In this document: piece after piece, positions 47,455-62,720 of the stretch | How the letters are laid out: every line of letters begins with the position of its first letter | Numbering within the stretch: position 1 is the stretch's first letter | Source of the DNA: Flectobacillus sp. BAB-3569 | GTDB taxonomy: Bacteria > Bacteroidota > Bacteroidia > Cytophagales > Spirosomataceae | Reading direction: 5' to 3' | Assembly: GCF_002270355.1 (NCBI RefSeq) | Contig: NZ_NJFZ01000032.1 | Coordinates: 1-64,000, forward strand | Length of the DNA stretch: 64,000 bases | Translations under genes and position numbers: made by a program | The notes under the pieces: generated by a model | The model's database searches: none | What the model saw: the letters and a program-made list of their open reading frames with translations, nothing else | What the model was told of the DNA's origin: nothing

Positions 47455-49112
47455 ATGAATAAACTTTTCATACTACTATGCTTTTGGCAGATTCCGCTAT
47501 TAGCGCAAGATTTGGGTGGTCTAAAGGGACAAAAGCCTGTCACTGTTTCAGGAGGTTTGAATTTAGGTTTTAATACTTATTCAAATCTTGAAGGCAGGCA
47601 ACGTCTCGACCCTTTTTCTTGGACTATTTCTGCCAGTCCTGTTATTTCGCTTTATGGTATTCAAATGCCATTCTTTTTCTTGATTAACCAACAAAGTCAG
47701 TCCTTTTCGGGGCCGTTCCAACAGTTTGGAATGAGTCCATCTTACAAATGGGCGAGACTACACTTGGGGTATCGTAACCTTAGCTATTCCAATTACACAT
47801 TGGCTGGGCGAATGTTTTTTGGAGCAGGTATCGACCTGAATCCTGGCAAATTTCGCTTTTCTGCCATGTATGGACGCTTTCAACAAGCAAGTTTGCGAGA
47901 TACAACTCGTAATACCTTTTCGTCTTTACCCTCTAGCTTCAGACGCATGGGGTATGCCGTAAAAGTAGGAGTGGGGTCTTCACAAAACTTCATCGACTTG
48001 ATTTATACCAAAGCATGGGACGAAGAAAATTCTATCAAAATCCCAATAGCCGAGGGTATCACTCCCGCCGAAAACACTACACTCGGCATTGTTTCTCAAT
48101 TGACTTTTTTAAAAAAATAACTTGGTCGTCCGATGTTGGGGTAAGTGGTTATACCTCCGATGTAAATGCCAAAGATTTGACTGGAACCATATCGCTTGAT
48201 AGTGATTTTTTGAAAAAACTATTTTTACTAAAACGAAGCACTCAGGTGGGTTATGCCGCCAATAGTAGTTTGAGGTTTAGTTCACGCTTTGCATCCTTAC
48301 AAGTACAATACCGTTTGATTTCGACAGATTATAAGTCGATGGGTGCGTATTTTTTCAACAATGATGTACAAGAAATTCTCTTTTCTCCTTCTTTTTCTTT
48401 TTGGCAAGGTCGAGTAAATCTGAGTGGTAGTTATGGTATACAGCAAGATAACGTTAGTAAAACCAAGGCTACTCAAACCACCCGCAACATCGGATCGCTC
48501 AATTTGTCAGTGCAACCCTCCACCAAATTTGGGATGTTGATGACCTATTCGAATTATGGTACTTTCCAGAATAATCCTGATAGAATTATTGATACCCTCA
48601 AAATCCAGCAGGTCAATCAAAGCTTGGTGGTAGCACCTCGTTTTTCTTGGGGCGACAGGGTGGTAAGTCATTCGATAAACCTAATGTCGAGTTACCAAAA
48701 CTCCAGCGATTACAATACTGTTTCCAAACAGTTATTAGAGTTTAATAACCTCTTTTTGTCTTTCAACTATCTGAGAAACAATATGAAACAGAAAATTACG
48801 ATAAGTCCAGGCGGGATTTTTATCAAAAACTTTTTGTCATACGGAAACACACAGTCGATGGGGGCAAGTTTGAATATTTCCAAAAACTTGAAGTCATTCT
48901 CTAATAGCTTGAATGTCAATTACAACCAAAACTATTATAAAGAAAATGCCAACGGTTATACATTCAATGCCCGATGGAACGGACGTATCAGACTATCGAG
49001 CAAACAACAACTTTCGTTGAGTGCAGCATTGCTCTACAACAAGGATCTCAAATTTGAAGCAAGAAATTTTACAGAAGTTTATACCCAAGCAGGTTACTCT
49101 CTCAACTTTTAA
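47455..49112 (+). CDS. Outer-membrane beta-barrel-like protein split by a -1 frame change at T6A7
   Basis: Two frames join into one about 552-residue protein. The first (47455-48120, 221 residues) has a signal peptide (MNKLFILLCFWQIPLLAQ) and beta-strand-rich text. It ends LTFLKK-stop at ACT TTT TTA AAA AAA TAA. The frame that carries on (-1) is sensible from the same point (FFKKITWSSDVGVSGYTS) and runs to 49112, finishing QAGYSLNF like a barrel. The overlapping N-terminal part of the second frame from 48015 is basic nonsense. The site contains U UUU UUA and A AAA AAA in phase, so programmed frameshifting, a true mutation or a missing base in the run are all possible. I do not recognise the family. 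The next gene starts 13 nt downstream. Confidence 0.65.
48105..48120 (+). promoter_or_regulatory. Candidate -1 slippery sequence
   Basis: TTTTTTAAAAAAA followed at once by TAA in the first frame. In phase it reads T TTT TTA and A AAA AAA, both known -1 slippery heptamers. Slipping continues into the downstream open frame. No clear stimulating stem was found directly after it. Confidence 0.45.
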
Positions 49113-49125
49113 ATCATTCAACGCC

Positions 49126-52100
49126 ATGAAAAAACTTTTTCTTTTTCTGAGCTTATTGATGGGAGTAGGGTTTGACTCTTTTTGTCAAACCCTTAGTGGA
49201 ATCAACGTTCAAACGATTTTTCCCCCACCCTATAGCCCAAGACTCAAGGATTATGCACCCGACGGTGCAAACAATTCCTTGAGAGTGATTTTGACGAATA
49301 CAACCCCCAATCCAGTAGACGTAAAGCTTTTGGGAGAAATAAAAGGACAAAACAACGGCGTGCGTGCCGTAACCAAAGATTCTTATCAGCCTTCCTCGCC
49401 GATAACACTCCCTGGCAATGGAGTGCCTGTGGAGGTGGAGATTTTTGGTTCGAGTCAAAACTTTTTTACTGAAAGTAACATCGACATTACGGGCATCGAC
49501 CCCAAATCCTTGATTAGTGGTTTAATTCCTCAGGGCTTTTACGAATTCTGTATTAAGGTGGCGCCCTACAATCAGCGACCTGCGATATTGAACGGCAATG
49601 AACCCCGTGGATGTATTATGATACCCATCACGTATATCGAGCCACCGCGCCTGACTATGCCTGTATGTGACCCCGTTACACCAATTCAATCGACCAATCC
49701 ACAAAATATCGTTTTTAACTGGACTCCTTGCGTAGGCAATATTGCTGGCGCACAGATTAACTATGATTTTTATCTTGTTAGAGTGCCAGAGGGACAAAAT
49801 CCCAACGACGCCATTAATAATGCTATCAATAGAAATGTAGGAAATCCATATTCAGAGAAGGATTTGGTCGCTCCCAATCTCATTTTTGGTGCCAATTACC
49901 CCGAGCTCGCCAATGGACTATATGCTTGGATGGTGGTCGCGAAAGACGCTAACGAAAAAATCTTTTTACAAAATGATGGAAAAAGTGAAGTTTGCACGTT
50001 TAGAGTTGGTGCACAAGGCGAAATGTTAGCGGCAAACAGCAGTATTGTAAAGTGTAAAAATGCCAAATTTCCAGCCGATTTGATAGCTGTAAAACAGACT
50101 GACTTGACAGGCAAAACTATCAAAATAGGCAATTTTGACATGACGATTGACCAAGCAATAGATTCGCCAGATGGCTGGTCGGGGAACGGGCGAATTACTT
50201 GGAATTATGTTCCATTGAAAGTCAAGTTTTCCAAACTGAAAATTAATGCAGCCAATCAAGCTATTTCTGGTTTGGCAAATGGAAGCGATGAAGGTTTTCA
50301 AATGCCTGGCATTACTCCTCCCGATTTATCGACCTACAAAAATATAAGTGTAGACTACCTCAAAACCTACACCAATTTGCTAACCAGTAAACTTTGGAAT
50401 GACCTTAAAGGACAAATGGCTGTTTCCCTGCCTATTGGCTATAGTACTGGCGCTGGTTTGATAGGTATTAATTATTTCACGATTGCACCAGACGGTGCTG
50501 AAATGGGAGCATTGTTAAATGTCAAAATGCCAGAGGATAATTCCTTTTTGTCGATGGCCGCCACCGAAATGTGTATGTTGCCCGACAAGCTTTTTCCCAA
50601 AAATGCAGTCCTTTATTTAGTCAAAGATTTTAAAGCTCCCTACACGCCAATCACGTTTAAGCAAAGCCACTATCCACAAAACGATGGTACGTATGCCATT
50701 CTCGACGAAGATTCGGTTCGTCATGTACACGTAGAGGCAGATTTGAATCTAGGGAAAAATGTGTTGGAATTGAATGACGACAATGGCAATACGCTACCCG
50801 GAGATGTGATTACGCAACTCAAATTTGATTTTAATAAATGGAATGACTGGGTTGCTACTGTCACTGTTCCAACATTTGGATTAAAAGATGCCGGAGGTAT
50901 CTCGGTAAAAGGTTTAGATGCGTTTTATGACCATTCTGATTTTCGTAATCCTCCTAATTTTAACCCACCAGCCGAATACGATGGAGAAAGAGGGAATACC
51001 TTCAAAGGTTTGTACTTGCAACGAGTTGATGTACTATTGCCAAAATCACTAGGCGGCGGAGGCAATAATCGACTCAGCTTTGCGGCATCCAATATGGTTT
51101 TTGATAGCGACGGACTTACGGCACGTTTTACGCCTTCACGTTATCCATTGTTGGATTATACCACTGGCAAAATGGGAAAATTAGCCTTTTCGGTTGATTC
51201 TTTTGAGGTATTGATTGTCAAAAATGCCTTGATACGTGGCAATATGGTGGGTAAAATACAATTGCCTATTAGTTCGGATGTGCTAGATTATACTTGTAAT
51301 CTTCGCAATGGTTTGGATTCGCTCAAAATCTTGGTGAAACCCAAACCACAAGGATACAACGTGCCAGTGTTTATGGCTAATATGAAAATAGCCCCCAACT
51401 CAGTTTTTGTGATAGGCTTGATAAAGGATAAAGACCCTGAGTTTTTATTTTCTCTCAATGGTACTTTAACCTTAGATTCAAAACCACCTCTGAATATGGT
51501 CGTGCCTGACCTGACTTTTGAGAATTTCTCTCTTTCAACTTTTAAAGCCTTGGGTGGCGACGAAATTGCTGGAAGTGGGATATATCTTCAAACAGGTGAA
51601 TGGTATCTGGAAGGAGGACTCGCAGGGGAGCATGAAAAAGACCCAGCCAATAAGGATGTAAAAGGCGGTCCTCACGAGGATATAATCATGACTTCAGCTG
51701 TGGCTAATGGAGGTAAAGAATCAAAAATGGGAGGCTTTCCTATTCAATTGATTCCGCCAAAATTTGTGAAAAATAATATCGGCTTAGGCTTTGAATTTGG
51801 GGTAAAAGTCATGGTAGGTGGCGACGACGCCAGCTTGGCAAATGCCTCAGGTACTGTACAAGTATTGGGTAGATTAGATTTTATAAATGGAAAATTAACC
51901 CCTTCTTTCAAAGGAGTCTATCCTTCTCGATTTACGATTGATGGACAATTTGGGCCTGCTAATGTAAAAGGTGAACTGAAATTTTATTATGATGATGCAA
52001 AATATGGAACAGGCTTAAGTGGATGGGGAAAAGTGAAAATTCCGAATTTGGCAACGGTCGAATCTAATATCATTTTTGGAAATACCAATGACTACTATTA

Positions 52101-54096
52101 CGGTTATATGGATGCTTCAGTGGTGGCAAACCCTGGCTTTGTATTAGTGCCACCACTTACCTTGACAGGTTTTGGTGGAGGCTTGTATTTTAACATGAAA
52201 CAAGAAGGAACTGTAGATGCTAAAATTGCCAATAAGCCACTCTCAGATGCCGAAAAAATGGAGCTGAACAATGCCCCTGGAGTGACCAAGTCAGGGCTAG
52301 TGTATTCACCACAAAAAGGTGCTTGGGGACTCAAAGCTCGTGTGTATATGTCTGTGGCAGATGCCCGCTTATTGACCGCTTCGGTGGGGCTTGAAGCTGG
52401 TTTTGCTAATGGAGCATTGAACAATTTTAACGCTACGGGCTCTGTCAATATTATCAGTAAAGATGGCACTCCTGATGACCCAACAACTTTGGTGAAAGGC
52501 TCGGTCGCTTTCAATTATTTGGCGCCAGGTATTTATGATGTTAACGCAGATATTACGGCTGGCATCTTAGGAACCAATGTTCAAGTGCCTTTGCGTGTAC
52601 ATTTCGATCCACAAAATTGGCATATCAAATTGGGTGACCCTCTCGATACGCAAAAACGTATTGCTTTCAATATTTTGGACTTAAATCTTCCAGTGGTAAA
52701 AGCGCATTTGGGAGCCAAATTCTATATAGCAATGGGCAATGACTTAGGTGGTTTGCCAGAATTGCCTGCTGAGGTAAGTAACTTTATGGGTGGTGCCAAC
52801 GCCGCTGCCGATCAGTATCGTAATGCTCAATATAGTAAGGTAGCCTCCAAAACGAATGTGAGTACCGACGAAGACGGACGAGTTACCTCTGTGCCAAAAT
52901 TCTCTATTTTGGTAGGTGGACAACTACAAGGTAGCTTTGACGCTACGGTAGCTATTCTATCTGTAAATGCTTCTGCAATTTTAGGCTTTGATGCTGCCTT
53001 AGAATATGGAATCGAATGCGAACAAGGTGGACAAGCCTTGGGCTGGAATGGCTGGTATGCCAATGCTCAAATGTATGCTTACCTCAATGGAGGTGCCTAT
53101 ATTGATTTAGATTCTTGGTTTGCTGCAGGACGTTTCAAAATATGCGAAGTGACCGCTGGAGCAATACTCAAAGGAGGGATTCCTAATCCGATGTGGATGA
53201 GTGGAAGGGTAAAAGTTCAAGGAAATGTGTTGGGTTTAATCAAAATAAATACAGGTTTTGATTTGGCTTTTGGAGAACAATGTACGCCTACCAACAACAA
53301 GGATAATGGTTTGGATGGTATCGAAATCATTGGGGATATATCTCCTGCCAATGGAGAAAATGCGGTTGAAACCGATGCGCCAATTACTGTAACGTTCAAC
53401 ACAAGTATCGGACAAGATTATGAATTGGCCATGCCTGATAATACTGTTAAAACCTTCCGTTTTAAACTTAAGGAATACAAACTTACATATGAAGATAGCA
53501 AAAATGGCGGTCGTTTGACCACATTCGATGGCTTTCAAGCACCTGAATGGGTGAATGATAATCAACAATTGATTTTGTCGAAAAACAAACATTTTGCTTC
53601 AACTTCCAAACATAAGTTTAGTATTTCATTGGGTATCGAAGAAGTAGGAGGAAAGGGTGATAACGCTAATCGTTCAGAAGAAAAAACGGTAGAGTTTTCA
53701 ACCTCCAAACAACCTGATTATATCAAGTTTAGCAACGTAAACTATACTTGGCCATTAGAAGGACAAAATTACTTCCTGAAAAATCAATTGCCACAAGGAG
53801 TCATCGAAGGGCAAATTCCTGATGAGGCCTTTCGCAGTGCTGTAGATGGTAGCGATTCAAAATTTAGTGCTTTGTTGTCAGGAAAATATATCTACAAGGC
53901 GGTATATATTCCGAAGGATGGTGGCGATACACTCACTACAGCAGTGTATTACGACAAACAAAATCAGGTGAAATTTGATATTCCGAACAATTTGCAAAAT
54001 GATAAAACCTACCGTGTCGAAATCCGTAGAATTTATCAAAGTGCTGTAGGCTCAGCCATCAATCTTAATCAGCAACTTTTGGCTAGCGCATGGTAA
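49126..54096 (+). CDS. Very large secreted TANFOR-like surface protein
   Basis: 1656 residues from the ATG at 49126, which begins a signal peptide (MKKLFLFLSLLMGVGFDSFC); an earlier in-frame GTG is rejected. The N-terminal about 330 residues (IFPPPYSPRLKDYAPDGANN, GFYEFCIKVAPYNQRP, IVFNWTPCVGNIAGAQINYD, GLYAWMVVAKD) match what I remember as the start of TANFOR-domain proteins of Bacteroidota. The middle is a long run of beta-rich segments without known catalytic motifs, with repeated WSGNGRITW, ISVKGLDAFYDHSD and LTLTGFGGGLYFN. The stop overlaps the ATG of the next frame (ATGGTAA). That frame looks like its C-terminus. Probably displayed at the cell surface. Confidence 0.65.
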   Translation: MKKLFLFLSLLMGVGFDSFCQTLSGINVQTIFPPPYSPRLKDYAPDGANNSLRVILTNTTPNPVDVKLLGEIKGQNNGVRAVTKDSYQPSSPITLPGNGVPVEVEIFGSSQNFFTESNIDITGIDPKSLISGLIPQGFYEFCIKVAPYNQRPAILNGNEPRGCIMIPITYIEPPRLTMPVCDPVTPIQSTNPQNIVFNWTPCVGNIAGAQINYDFYLVRVPEGQNPNDAINNAINRNVGNPYSEKDLVAPNLIFGANYPELANGLYAWMVVAKDANEKIFLQNDGKSEVCTFRVGAQGEMLAANSSIVKCKNAKFPADLIAVKQTDLTGKTIKIGNFDMTIDQAIDSPDGWSGNGRITWNYVPLKVKFSKLKINAANQAISGLANGSDEGFQMPGITPPDLSTYKNISVDYLKTYTNLLTSKLWNDLKGQMAVSLPIGYSTGAGLIGINYFTIAPDGAEMGALLNVKMPEDNSFLSMAATEMCMLPDKLFPKNAVLYLVKDFKAPYTPITFKQSHYPQNDGTYAILDEDSVRHVHVEADLNLGKNVLELNDDNGNTLPGDVITQLKFDFNKWNDWVATVTVPTFGLKDAGGISVKGLDAFYDHSDFRNPPNFNPPAEYDGERGNTFKGLYLQRVDVLLPKSLGGGGNNRLSFAASNMVFDSDGLTARFTPSRYPLLDYTTGKMGKLAFSVDSFEVLIVKNALIRGNMVGKIQLPISSDVLDYTCNLRNGLDSLKILVKPKPQGYNVPVFMANMKIAPNSVFVIGLIKDKDPEFLFSLNGTLTLDSKPPLNMVVPDLTFENFSLSTFKALGGDEIAGSGIYLQTGEWYLEGGLAGEHEKDPANKDVKGGPHEDIIMTSAVANGGKESKMGGFPIQLIPPKFVKNNIGLGFEFGVKVMVGGDDASLANASGTVQVLGRLDFINGKLTPSFKGVYPSRFTIDGQFGPANVKGELKFYYDDAKYGTGLSGWGKVKIPNLATVESNIIFGNTNDYYYGYMDASVVANPGFVLVPPLTLTGFGGGLYFNMKQEGTVDAKIANKPLSDAEKMELNNAPGVTKSGLVYSPQKGAWGLKARVYMSVADARLLTASVGLEAGFANGALNNFNATGSVNIISKDGTPDDPTTLVKGSVAFNYLAPGIYDVNADITAGILGTNVQVPLRVHFDPQNWHIKLGDPLDTQKRIAFNILDLNLPVVKAHLGAKFYIAMGNDLGGLPELPAEVSNFMGGANAAADQYRNAQYSKVASKTNVSTDEDGRVTSVPKFSILVGGQLQGSFDATVAILSVNASAILGFDAALEYGIECEQGGQALGWNGWYANAQMYAYLNGGAYIDLDSWFAAGRFKICEVTAGAILKGGIPNPMWMSGRVKVQGNVLGLIKINTGFDLAFGEQCTPTNNKDNGLDGIEIIGDISPANGENAVETDAPITVTFNTSIGQDYELAMPDNTVKTFRFKLKEYKLTYEDSKNGGRLTTFDGFQAPEWVNDNQQLILSKNKHFASTSKHKFSISLGIEEVGGKGDNANRSEEKTVEFSTSKQPDYIKFSNVNYTWPLEGQNYFLKNQLPQGVIEGQIPDEAFRSAVDGSDSKFSALLSGKYIYKAVYIPKDGGDTLTTAVYYDKQNQVKFDIPNNLQNDKTYRVEIRRIYQSAVGSAINLNQQLLASAW

Positions 54097-61550: not shown

Positions 61551-61581
61551 TTGATAAAACGCGAAGTTCGCTATATATTTG
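61551..61581 (+). promoter_or_regulatory. Candidate promoter of the desaturase gene
   Basis: TTG at 61551-61553 and TATATTTG at 61574-61581 are 20 nt apart, the expected spacing of the Bacteroidota -33 and -7 elements (TTG, TAnnTTTG). It lies about 75 nt before the ATG at 61657. Confidence 0.5.
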
Positions 61582-61656: not shown

Positions 61657-62661
61657 ATGGCATATCAACAAGATTTTACCTATGTTACGGGCACAGAACC
61701 ACACCGTACTCGTACACGTGAAATTGTAAAAGCTCACCCAGAAGTAAAAAAACTTATTACCAAAAACCCCATGACTTTCGTTTGGATTCTAGGCTGTGTA
61801 TCAATGCAAATTGGTATGGCTTACCTAGTAAAAGATCAAGCATGGTGGGTTATTTTGGCAGCTGCTTGGCTAATCGGTGCGTTTCCAACGCATACACTTT
61901 TTGTATGTATTCATGAGGCTGCACACAACTTGATTTTCAAAAAACCATCTTGGAATGTTTATGCAGGTATCGTTGCAAACTTTCCATCTTTGGCACCAAC
62001 AGCTATTTCATTCAAAAATTATCACCTAAAACACCATGCATTTCAAGGTGTTCACGAGTTAGATGCAGACTTACCAGATCACTGGGAAGCAAAATTGATT
62101 AACAACTATTTCATAGGTAAAGCATTGTGGTTGTTATTATTTCCAATTTTCCAAGCTATTCGTACATTGCGTTGTTTGGAATTGGCGGTATTTGACCGTT
62201 GGGTAATCATGAATATCGTTTGCCAATTGGCATTTGATGCGATTATTGTGTATACAATGGGTTGGCCTGCATTAGGTTACATGGGTGCAAGTTTTATGTT
62301 CTCAGTAGGTTTACACCCACTAGGTGCTCGTTGGATTCAAGAACACTATTTAGTATTGGACAAAAACCAAGAAACATACAGCTACTACGGTGCATTGAAT
62401 GGAATCAACATGAACGTAGGTTATCACAACGAACACCACGATATGCCATCAGTACCTTGGAACAACCTTCCAAAATTGAAAGCTACTGCTCCAGAGTTTT
62501 ATGATAATTTGAAATATCATACTTCATTTACAAAGCTATTCTTTACTTTCTTGTTTAGTCAAGAAGTAGGTCTTTATTCACGTATTGTTCGTAAAGAAAG
62601 AGGTAAAGTTACTTTGGATGACAACTCAACACCAGATATTCAGTTGTTGCAAGGAAAGTAA
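61657..62661 (+). CDS. Membrane fatty-acid desaturase resembling eukaryotic sphingolipid delta-4 desaturase (DES1)
   Basis: 334 residues with four or more membrane segments and the three His boxes of di-iron desaturases: CIHEAAHN, NYHLKHHAF and GYHNEHHDMPSVPW. From memory the whole chain is collinear with human DEGS1: N-terminal DFTYVTGTEPHRTRTREI, HELDADLPDHWEAKL, LHPLGARWIQEHYLVLDKNQ, ETYSYYGALN, and a C-terminal LYSRIVRK. Such enzymes introduce the trans-delta-4 double bond of ceramides. Cytophagales do make sphingolipids, so a ceramide substrate is plausible; a fatty-acyl or other lipid substrate is possible. It is a single gene with its own promoter and terminator. Confidence 0.85.
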   Translation: MAYQQDFTYVTGTEPHRTRTREIVKAHPEVKKLITKNPMTFVWILGCVSMQIGMAYLVKDQAWWVILAAAWLIGAFPTHTLFVCIHEAAHNLIFKKPSWNVYAGIVANFPSLAPTAISFKNYHLKHHAFQGVHELDADLPDHWEAKLINNYFIGKALWLLLFPIFQAIRTLRCLELAVFDRWVIMNIVCQLAFDAIIVYTMGWPALGYMGASFMFSVGLHPLGARWIQEHYLVLDKNQETYSYYGALNGINMNVGYHNEHHDMPSVPWNNLPKLKATAPEFYDNLKYHTSFTKLFFTFLFSQEVGLYSRIVRKERGKVTLDDNSTPDIQLLQGK

Positions 62662-62680
62662 TAAATTGTATTATGTATCG

Positions 62681-62720
62681 AAAACCCTCGTTTAATCAAG
62701 TTAGACGAGGGTTTTTTGTT
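62681..62720 (+). terminator. Rho-independent terminator of the desaturase gene
   Basis: AAAACCCTCGT (62681-62691) pairs with ACGAGGGTTTT (62705-62715), followed by TTGTTTGTTT. It is 20 nt behind the stop. Confidence 0.85.

Follow-up and report, generated by a model that had tools for sequence, protein, structure and literature searches.

Desaturases of the DES family are best known from eukaryotes, and some members, known for the DES2 branch, are bifunctional desaturase/hydroxylases; bacterial sphingolipids are usually described as saturated. According to the available text of PMC5037126, delta-4 sphingolipid desaturases form one cluster, and many prokaryotic desaturases are uncharacterized. 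For the sulfonolipids of Bacteroidota, the available text of PMC9304779 reports that the active site of SulA has Lys281 where that of Spt has Ala, and that SulA, as determined for the Alistipes enzyme, does not accept serine. With regard to a base desaturase in the SulA/CapB-CapC pathway, the word “desaturase” occurs 0 times in the available text of PMC9304779 and twice in that of PMC11211663, both times in reference to eukaryotes. The titles and abstract openings surveyed here, from a literature in which subscription journals lay mostly outside the scope, mentioned no bacterial DES-type enzyme or sulfonolipid desaturase.

The DES1-type gene and its product

The window, that is, the whole stretch of 64,000 nucleotides of Flectobacillus sp. 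BAB-3569 that was analyzed (contig NZ_NJFZ01000032.1), harbors a DES1-type desaturase gene with the following features.

61574-61581, + strand: possible promoter -7 element, TATATTTG, approximately 75 bases 5' of the ATG, read by eye
61657-62661, + strand: DES1-type (Lipid_DES + FA_desaturase) membrane desaturase ORF, 334 aa, ATG start, TAA stop
61666-61770, + strand: N-terminal Lipid_DES domain, residues 4-38 (Pfam PF08557, 46.7 bits, cut-off 23)
61912-61926, + strand: His box 1, HEAAH, residues 86-90, both His invariant in an alignment of 20
62023-62037, + strand: His box 2, HLKHH, residues 123-127, His 123, 126, and 127 invariant in the alignment of 20
62425-62439, + strand: His box 3, HNEHH, residues 257-261, His 257, 260, and 261 invariant in the alignment of 20
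62680-62716, + strand: likely intrinsic terminator, 17-pair stem followed by a T run

An earlier, sequence-only reading had assigned the product to a DES1-like family on the strength of three His boxes and of LHP, ETYSYYG, and GYHNEHHD-type motifs in the order of human DEGS1, and this assignment is borne out. The boxes begin at residues 86, 123, and 257, with GLHP (residue 218), QEHY (228), and ETYSYYG (239) between the second and the third, and the 20 aligned DES relatives agree throughout not only in the box histidines but also in H220-P221, E229-H230, and most of QETxSYYG. Both Pfam domains score above their cut-offs, FA_desaturase (PF00487) reaching 80.8 bits (cut-off 29.7), and Lipid_DES has a single match in the genome itself and none in 14 control genomes. 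Alignment to human DEGS1, entered as a sequence not drawn from a database, gave 38% identity over 320 residues (E 1e-76), a result that itself speaks for the consistency of the sequence entered. It appears near certain from these comparisons that the ORF represents a genuine, full-length bacterial member of the DES1 (sphingolipid delta-4 desaturase) family.

That the product is an ordinary acyl-lipid desaturase serving phospholipid fatty acids, and merely resembles DES1, is very unlikely. The many uncharacterized prokaryotic FA_desaturase proteins noted in the available text of PMC5037126 speak for such an assignment, against which stand the Lipid_DES N terminus, the gene context of its relatives, and the full-length identity to this DEGS1 sequence, against which none of the genome's four other FA_desaturase proteins exceeds 25 bits. 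An acyl-lipid (FADS) identity was rejected since the protein did not match the PF00487 paralogues of its own genome at 1e-5. Carotene ketolase CrtW (NF045690), the only NCBIfam match at 0.001, was likewise rejected, its score of 25.1 bits comparing with a cut-off of 350.

The AlphaFold model of the protein (pLDDT 86.3, pTM 0.87) returned two Foldseek matches below 0.001, both being chains of Chlamydomonas FtsHi complexes, followed by AlkB (E 0.003 and 0.007) and human stearoyl-CoA desaturase (E 0.084, probability 0.93). Sequence searches of the PDB matched no chain at 0.001 with the single sequence or at 0.1 with a profile.

The gene had also been credited with its own promoter and terminator. 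The terminator is supported fairly well, as three terminator-like sites were found where 0.8 +/- 0.9 were expected. Support for the promoter is weak because a generic sigma-70 scan was close to background (9 found, 5.3 +/- 2.2 expected); the element at 61574-61581 is one which we take to be of the Bacteroidota -7 type. The claim that no sphingolipid gene lies adjacent stands: window ORFs of at least 90 aa had no match at 1e-4 to the seven proteins of the sphingolipid operons described below or to 13 alpha-oxoamine-synthase-type sequences. Elsewhere in the window, positions 49021-54096 hold a 1,691-aa frame, in the product of which a single Big_5 domain is the sole Pfam match at 0.001.

Distribution and phylogeny of the DES family

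Relatives are encoded by 74 of the 79 pattern-matched stretches in the genome_contigs collection (48-99% identity), so that DES is a conserved gene rather than a chance occurrence. Their hosts belong to Bacteroidota, Ignavibacteriota, Verrucomicrobiota, and Bdellovibrionota, with single metagenome-assembled genomes (MAGs) carrying other labels. The nearest named relatives, both at 99%, come from Flectobacillus longus and from a strain whose deposited name is Cellulophaga sp. BC115SP, followed by Cytophagales MAGs, Pseudarcicella, Arcicella, and Aquirufa. Of 296 sampled genomes of the phylum, 30 carry Lipid_DES, and all five genomes of the genus possess it. One scan of viral_contigs gave no DES relative, and thus no viral carrier was seen.

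From 105 rows (74 + 29 loci, the window, and DEGS1), trees were built with 73 and with 66 rows, the second omitting seven long or doubtful rows; even so, a long-branch warning for DEGS1 persisted. The window row falls in a clade of 13 rows (support 92/93), which groups, at 99/94, with a clade of eight rows (99/99) whose genes lie in apparent sphingolipid operons. In both trees it is nested among bacterial rows and apart from DEGS1, which is the only eukaryotic row and has a long branch; with support 100/99, whether or not the seven rows are omitted, it joins four other bacterial rows (L099-L102). These four, from another family of the phylum (genomes G191, G089, G262, and G187), are 43-49% identical to the human DEGS1 sequence used, the highest values among the bacterial rows compared (48.7% for L099, versus 38% for the window protein). 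Bacterial rows closer to human DEGS1 than that of the window bear on the source of the eukaryotic enzyme.

Recent acquisition of the window gene from a eukaryote seems improbable. A recent transfer of this kind, or contamination, would agree with the family being best known from eukaryotes; we consider it scarcely credible in view of the relatives in several bacterial phyla, the presence of Lipid_DES throughout the genus, the position of the window row among bacterial rows, and the attachment of DEGS1 to a different bacterial group. The question of ancestry versus acquisition, which the sequence-only reading had posed, holds up, the trees containing DEGS1 as their single eukaryotic row.

Base-forming enzymes of the Flectobacillus genome

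The genome (6.62 Mb, 183 contigs, 99.81% complete) was searched for class I/II aminotransferases, yielding 23 matches, of which 20, all except the three weakest, were judged by eye together with their loci, and four loci were scanned with NCBIfam. The alpha-oxoamine synthases recognized among these 20 loci are Kbl (over its cut-off), a BioF-type protein, a divergent BioF-like protein (L088), and the protein of locus L086. The last matches two enzymes of solved structure, 7u7h at 6e-177 and 28eh, named cysteate-C-fatty acyltransferase, at 9.8e-160, compared with 1.8e-67 for serine palmitoyltransferase (SPT). Its residue equivalent to SulA-281, located 30 positions beyond the PLP lysine, is Lys, and SPT has Ala there. 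By these sequence measures L086 is assigned as SulA/CapB, the cysteate acyl-ACP transferase that would start the sulfonolipid (capnine) pathway. Its gene lies on contig C138 and the desaturase gene on C53, so chromosomal linkage of the two was not observed.

SPT itself had no match at E 1e-150 in this genome or in the four other genomes of the genus. What the SPT model picks up in those four at E <= 1e-60 can be assigned, from score and location, to the Kbl, SulA, and BioF types. In the DES-positive genome G324, SulA is the only protein that matches the model at this threshold. The sequence-only reading had favored a sphingosine-type base as the product, which is not well supported here, and its fallback, another lipid, fits better given the presence of SulA/CapB. 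It had further named an absence of sphingolipid genes as evidence against itself, and this is in part what was found: no SPT match was obtained at 1e-150, and only Kbl-, BioF-, and SulA-type enzymes are recognized. L088 may conceivably be a hidden SPT but was not counted as one, its score being higher to bioF (86.6 bits) than to SPT (54.4 bits), with no lipid gene seen beside it.

Several other genes of these genomes merit description. A diacylglycerol-kinase/YegS-type lipid kinase (L096:12109-13041) is encoded approximately 2 kb downstream of sulA/capB in the present Flectobacillus genome. A GNAT-like protein (L187:8726-9898), with no Pfam match at 0.001 and 26% identity to the GNAT of the operons, is a candidate N-acyltransferase for sulfonolipids, similar distant forms being present in most genomes of the host family. 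A second GNAT homologue (L186:8021-8986) has 374 aa in L185 and, in the present genome, an internal stop or a shorter frame. This additional GNAT, present in the genus at L185, L186, and L188, was not followed as a lead: the other six operon proteins found no match at 1e-4 among its neighbors.

Gene clusters containing SPT in the sister clade

The neighborhood survey comprised 104 loci, of which 103 retained a DES gene model (L046 being dropped); gene starts were set at the first start codon, so that some N termini are too long. An SPT-like gene lies near DES in at least 15 of the 103 loci, a lower bound because the loci differ in length and some end close to DES. All eight loci of the sister clade (L034, L036, L039, and L041-L045; the stretch L036:822-7936 is an example) look like bacterial sphingolipid operons, with genes for an FA_hydroxylase, SPT, and a GNAT beside DES on the same strand. 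An epimerase-type reductase is encoded in seven (it is absent from L045), PgpA in six, and myo-inositol phosphate synthase (MIPS) in four, the gene families having been assigned from one representative each. By analogy with known bacterial ceramide pathways, we take the GNAT to be the N-acyltransferase and the epimerase-type protein to be the ceramide reductase. The DES proteins of this clade are 68-75% identical to that of the window, with L036 at 75%. Two of the SPTs scored 633.9 and 639.6 bits against the NCBIfam SPT model, just below its cut-off of 640, and Ala occupies the SPT/SulA-discriminating position in the three that were checked. Judging from gene content, three of the eight loci (L034, L036, and L039) look like complete routes to unsaturated inositol ceramides, and close homologues of the window enzyme located beside SPT would be expected to contribute to sphingosine-type ceramides in these lineages. 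The prediction that bacteria make sphingosine-type bases finds support elsewhere, where the same DES family sits beside SPT, and is not well supported in the present organism.

Clusters with a related gene set, including a CDP-alcohol phosphatidyltransferase, occur in Verrucomicrobia (L059, L062-L064, and L066-L069). At L069:4989-10199 and similar loci, DES adjoins genes for an FA_hydroxylase, an alpha-oxoamine synthase, the CDP-alcohol phosphatidyltransferase, and mostly a GNAT. The two synthases checked (L059 and L069) have Cys at the SulA-281 position, and the best NCBIfam score of the L069 enzyme is to bioF, below the bioF cut-off. They are not clearly SPTs, which makes these clusters weaker evidence than those of Saprospiraceae, and the Cys-containing enzyme is possibly a third kind of base-forming enzyme.

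Co-occurrence of DES with SPT and SulA

SPT was searched in the family and phylum samples at E <= 1e-150, looser matches being read for 30 genomes only; the Lys/Ala check covered three of the eight operon SPTs, four of the 36 family SPTs, 18 of the 20 SPT-type enzymes of DES-positive genomes outside the host class, and five SulA proteins (that of the own genome and four others, with Lys at the SulA-281 position). Among 150 genomes of the host family, DES is present in 58 and SPT, over its cut-off, in 36, and no genome has both (Fisher P 1e-9 per genome). Because genomes of one genus are not independent, the genus-level value is used: DES and SPT occur in 13 and 7 of 36 genera, respectively, with none shared (P 0.03). 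Restricted to the 134 genomes at least 90% complete with at most 5% contamination, the counts are 53 and 33. SulA-like proteins at 1e-110 are present in 150/150. A GNAT 45-52% identical to that of the operons was found in 32 of the 36 SPT-positive genomes, adjoining SPT in all 32 by coordinates, and among the matches listed for SPT-less genomes of the family the GNATs are distant (approximately 25-32% identity).

Beyond the family the relationship is reversed. The 73 genomes of the host class in the phylum sample comprise six with DES and SPT, four with DES only, four with SPT only, and 59 with neither, a positive association (6/10 DES-positive versus 4/63 DES-negative genomes; Fisher P 2e-4), and SulA is present in 70. 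Outside the class, all 20 DES-positive genomes have an SPT-type enzyme, scoring 477-526 bits, below the curated cut-off of 640; SPT is the best NCBIfam model for the four that were scanned, and Ala occupies the diagnostic position in the 18 that were checked. Across the phylum sample an SPT-type enzyme thus accompanies DES in 26 of 30 genomes, 20 of the 26 being below the curated cut-off, and SulA is present in all four DES-positive genomes that have no SPT (G000, G249, G146, and G150). These data point to SPT as the general partner of DES, and the near universality of SulA in the host class and family means that its co-presence with DES is not specific.

Proposed function of the window enzyme

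We propose, with a probability of roughly 55%, that the window enzyme is a DES1-type 4-desaturase acting on sulfonolipids built on capnine, which are sulfonate counterparts of ceramide. The family, the conserved histidine ligands, the predicted fold type, and the genome content are observed, and from them the chemistry, its regiochemistry, and the identity of the base are inferred. As a membrane di-iron enzyme, it would remove two hydrogens, at carbons 4 and 5, from an N-acylated 2-amino-3-hydroxy long-chain base. The likeliest such base in Flectobacillus is capnine, a sphinganine analogue with a sulfonate at carbon 1, presumably formed from cysteate and acyl-ACP via SulA/CapB, because the genome has SulA/CapB and no recognizable SPT. 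Desaturation would then yield a 4-ene sulfonolipid, which corresponds within its lipid class to ceramide. As DES persists in a family in which SulA is present everywhere and DES never occurs together with SPT, a SulA-derived sulfonolipid is the simplest substrate. The broader proposal is that, across a whole bacterial family, a DES1-type desaturase, homologous to the enzyme that forms human ceramide, has lost its tie to ceramide and introduces the 4-double bond of sulfonolipids. In our estimation this proposal has an even chance of being correct. Thirteen positions separate the presumed SPT-less DES rows from the operon rows, and none introduces a new basic residue for the sulfonate, making an enzyme indifferent to the head group as likely as a specialized one.

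Alternatively, the enzyme could be a true dihydroceramide delta-4 desaturase, as in animals. Flectobacillus would then make ceramide through an SPT activity that escaped recognition, such as a SulA/CapB broad enough to use serine as well, or the divergent L088, and the product would be a sphingosine-type base. Long-chain bases of F. major reportedly carry a 4(E) double bond, which favors this alternative; if this is so, the product was known chemically before the gene, and a non-canonical route to sphinganine may exist. F. major is also described as a sphingolipid producer, with large quantities of glycosphingolipid in the available text of PMC5155239 (citing Batrakov 1999 and 2000) and sphingophospholipids in a table of PMC10626005, as far as its text was available. 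A reported glycosphingolipid predicts some route to sphinganine. In the accessible part of PMC9304779, Batrakov 2000 is cited among references 2-6 for sulfonolipids of environmental Bacteroidetes, and that of PMC9246714 presents F. major as an exception to the agreement between genes and inositol-lipid bands. The close homologues beside SPT and the SPT-type enzyme in 26 of the 30 DES-positive genomes point in the same direction as the sphingolipid reports, and these reports, with the pairing of DES and SPT outside the host family, count against the sulfonolipid assignment. Set against the dihydroceramide alternative are the lack of an SPT match at 1e-150 in all five genomes of the genus, the Kbl, SulA, and BioF type of the SPT-model matches in four of them, and the finding, in the available text of PMC9304779, that Alistipes SulA does not use serine, the enzyme of the present genome having the diagnostic Lys. 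We regard this alternative as possible though doubtful, and sphingosine is not the likeliest product in this organism.

The enzyme could also be a C4-hydroxylase or a bifunctional desaturase/hydroxylase, giving hydroxylated bases, as bifunctional members of the family would suggest. Bacterial sulfonolipids with extra hydroxyls do exist, RIF-1 having a 5-hydroxy capnine base (available text of PMC3463246). A separate FA_hydroxylase is already encoded in the operon loci, and FA_hydroxylase has seven matches in the Flectobacillus genome, which renders this activity unlikely.

The occurrence of DES without SPT in Flectobacillus and its family predicts unsaturated sulfonolipids. The widespread bacterial DES1 family, found in part beside SPT, predicts sphingosine-type ceramides in several phyla and names the gene. 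Sulfonolipids signal to choanoflagellates, and F. major was positive in the choanoflagellate rosette assay (available text of PMC3463246); it is also abundant on the gills and skin of trout (available text of PMC5155239). A single double bond could thus be linked to effects on other organisms.

Comparison with known systems

The window protein resembles DES1/DEGS1 (PF08557 + PF00487) in length, N-terminal domain, and the three His boxes, as well as in LHP, ETYSYYG, NVGYHNEHHD, and the YSR near the C terminus, and it differs in its bacterial host, in the absence of a recognized SPT from the genome, and in a substrate that is probably not ceramide. Its similarity to SCD1 and AlkB is one of predicted fold (Foldseek 4zyo, 8sbb, and 8f6t, E 0.003-0.084), with no match of sequence in the PDB. 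Whereas the bacterial DES genes beside SPT (L034, L036, L039, and L041-L045) are clustered, that of the window stands alone. With the SulA/CapB-CapC sulfonolipid (capnine) pathway of Bacteroidota, the genome shares a SulA/CapB that bears the diagnostic Lys.
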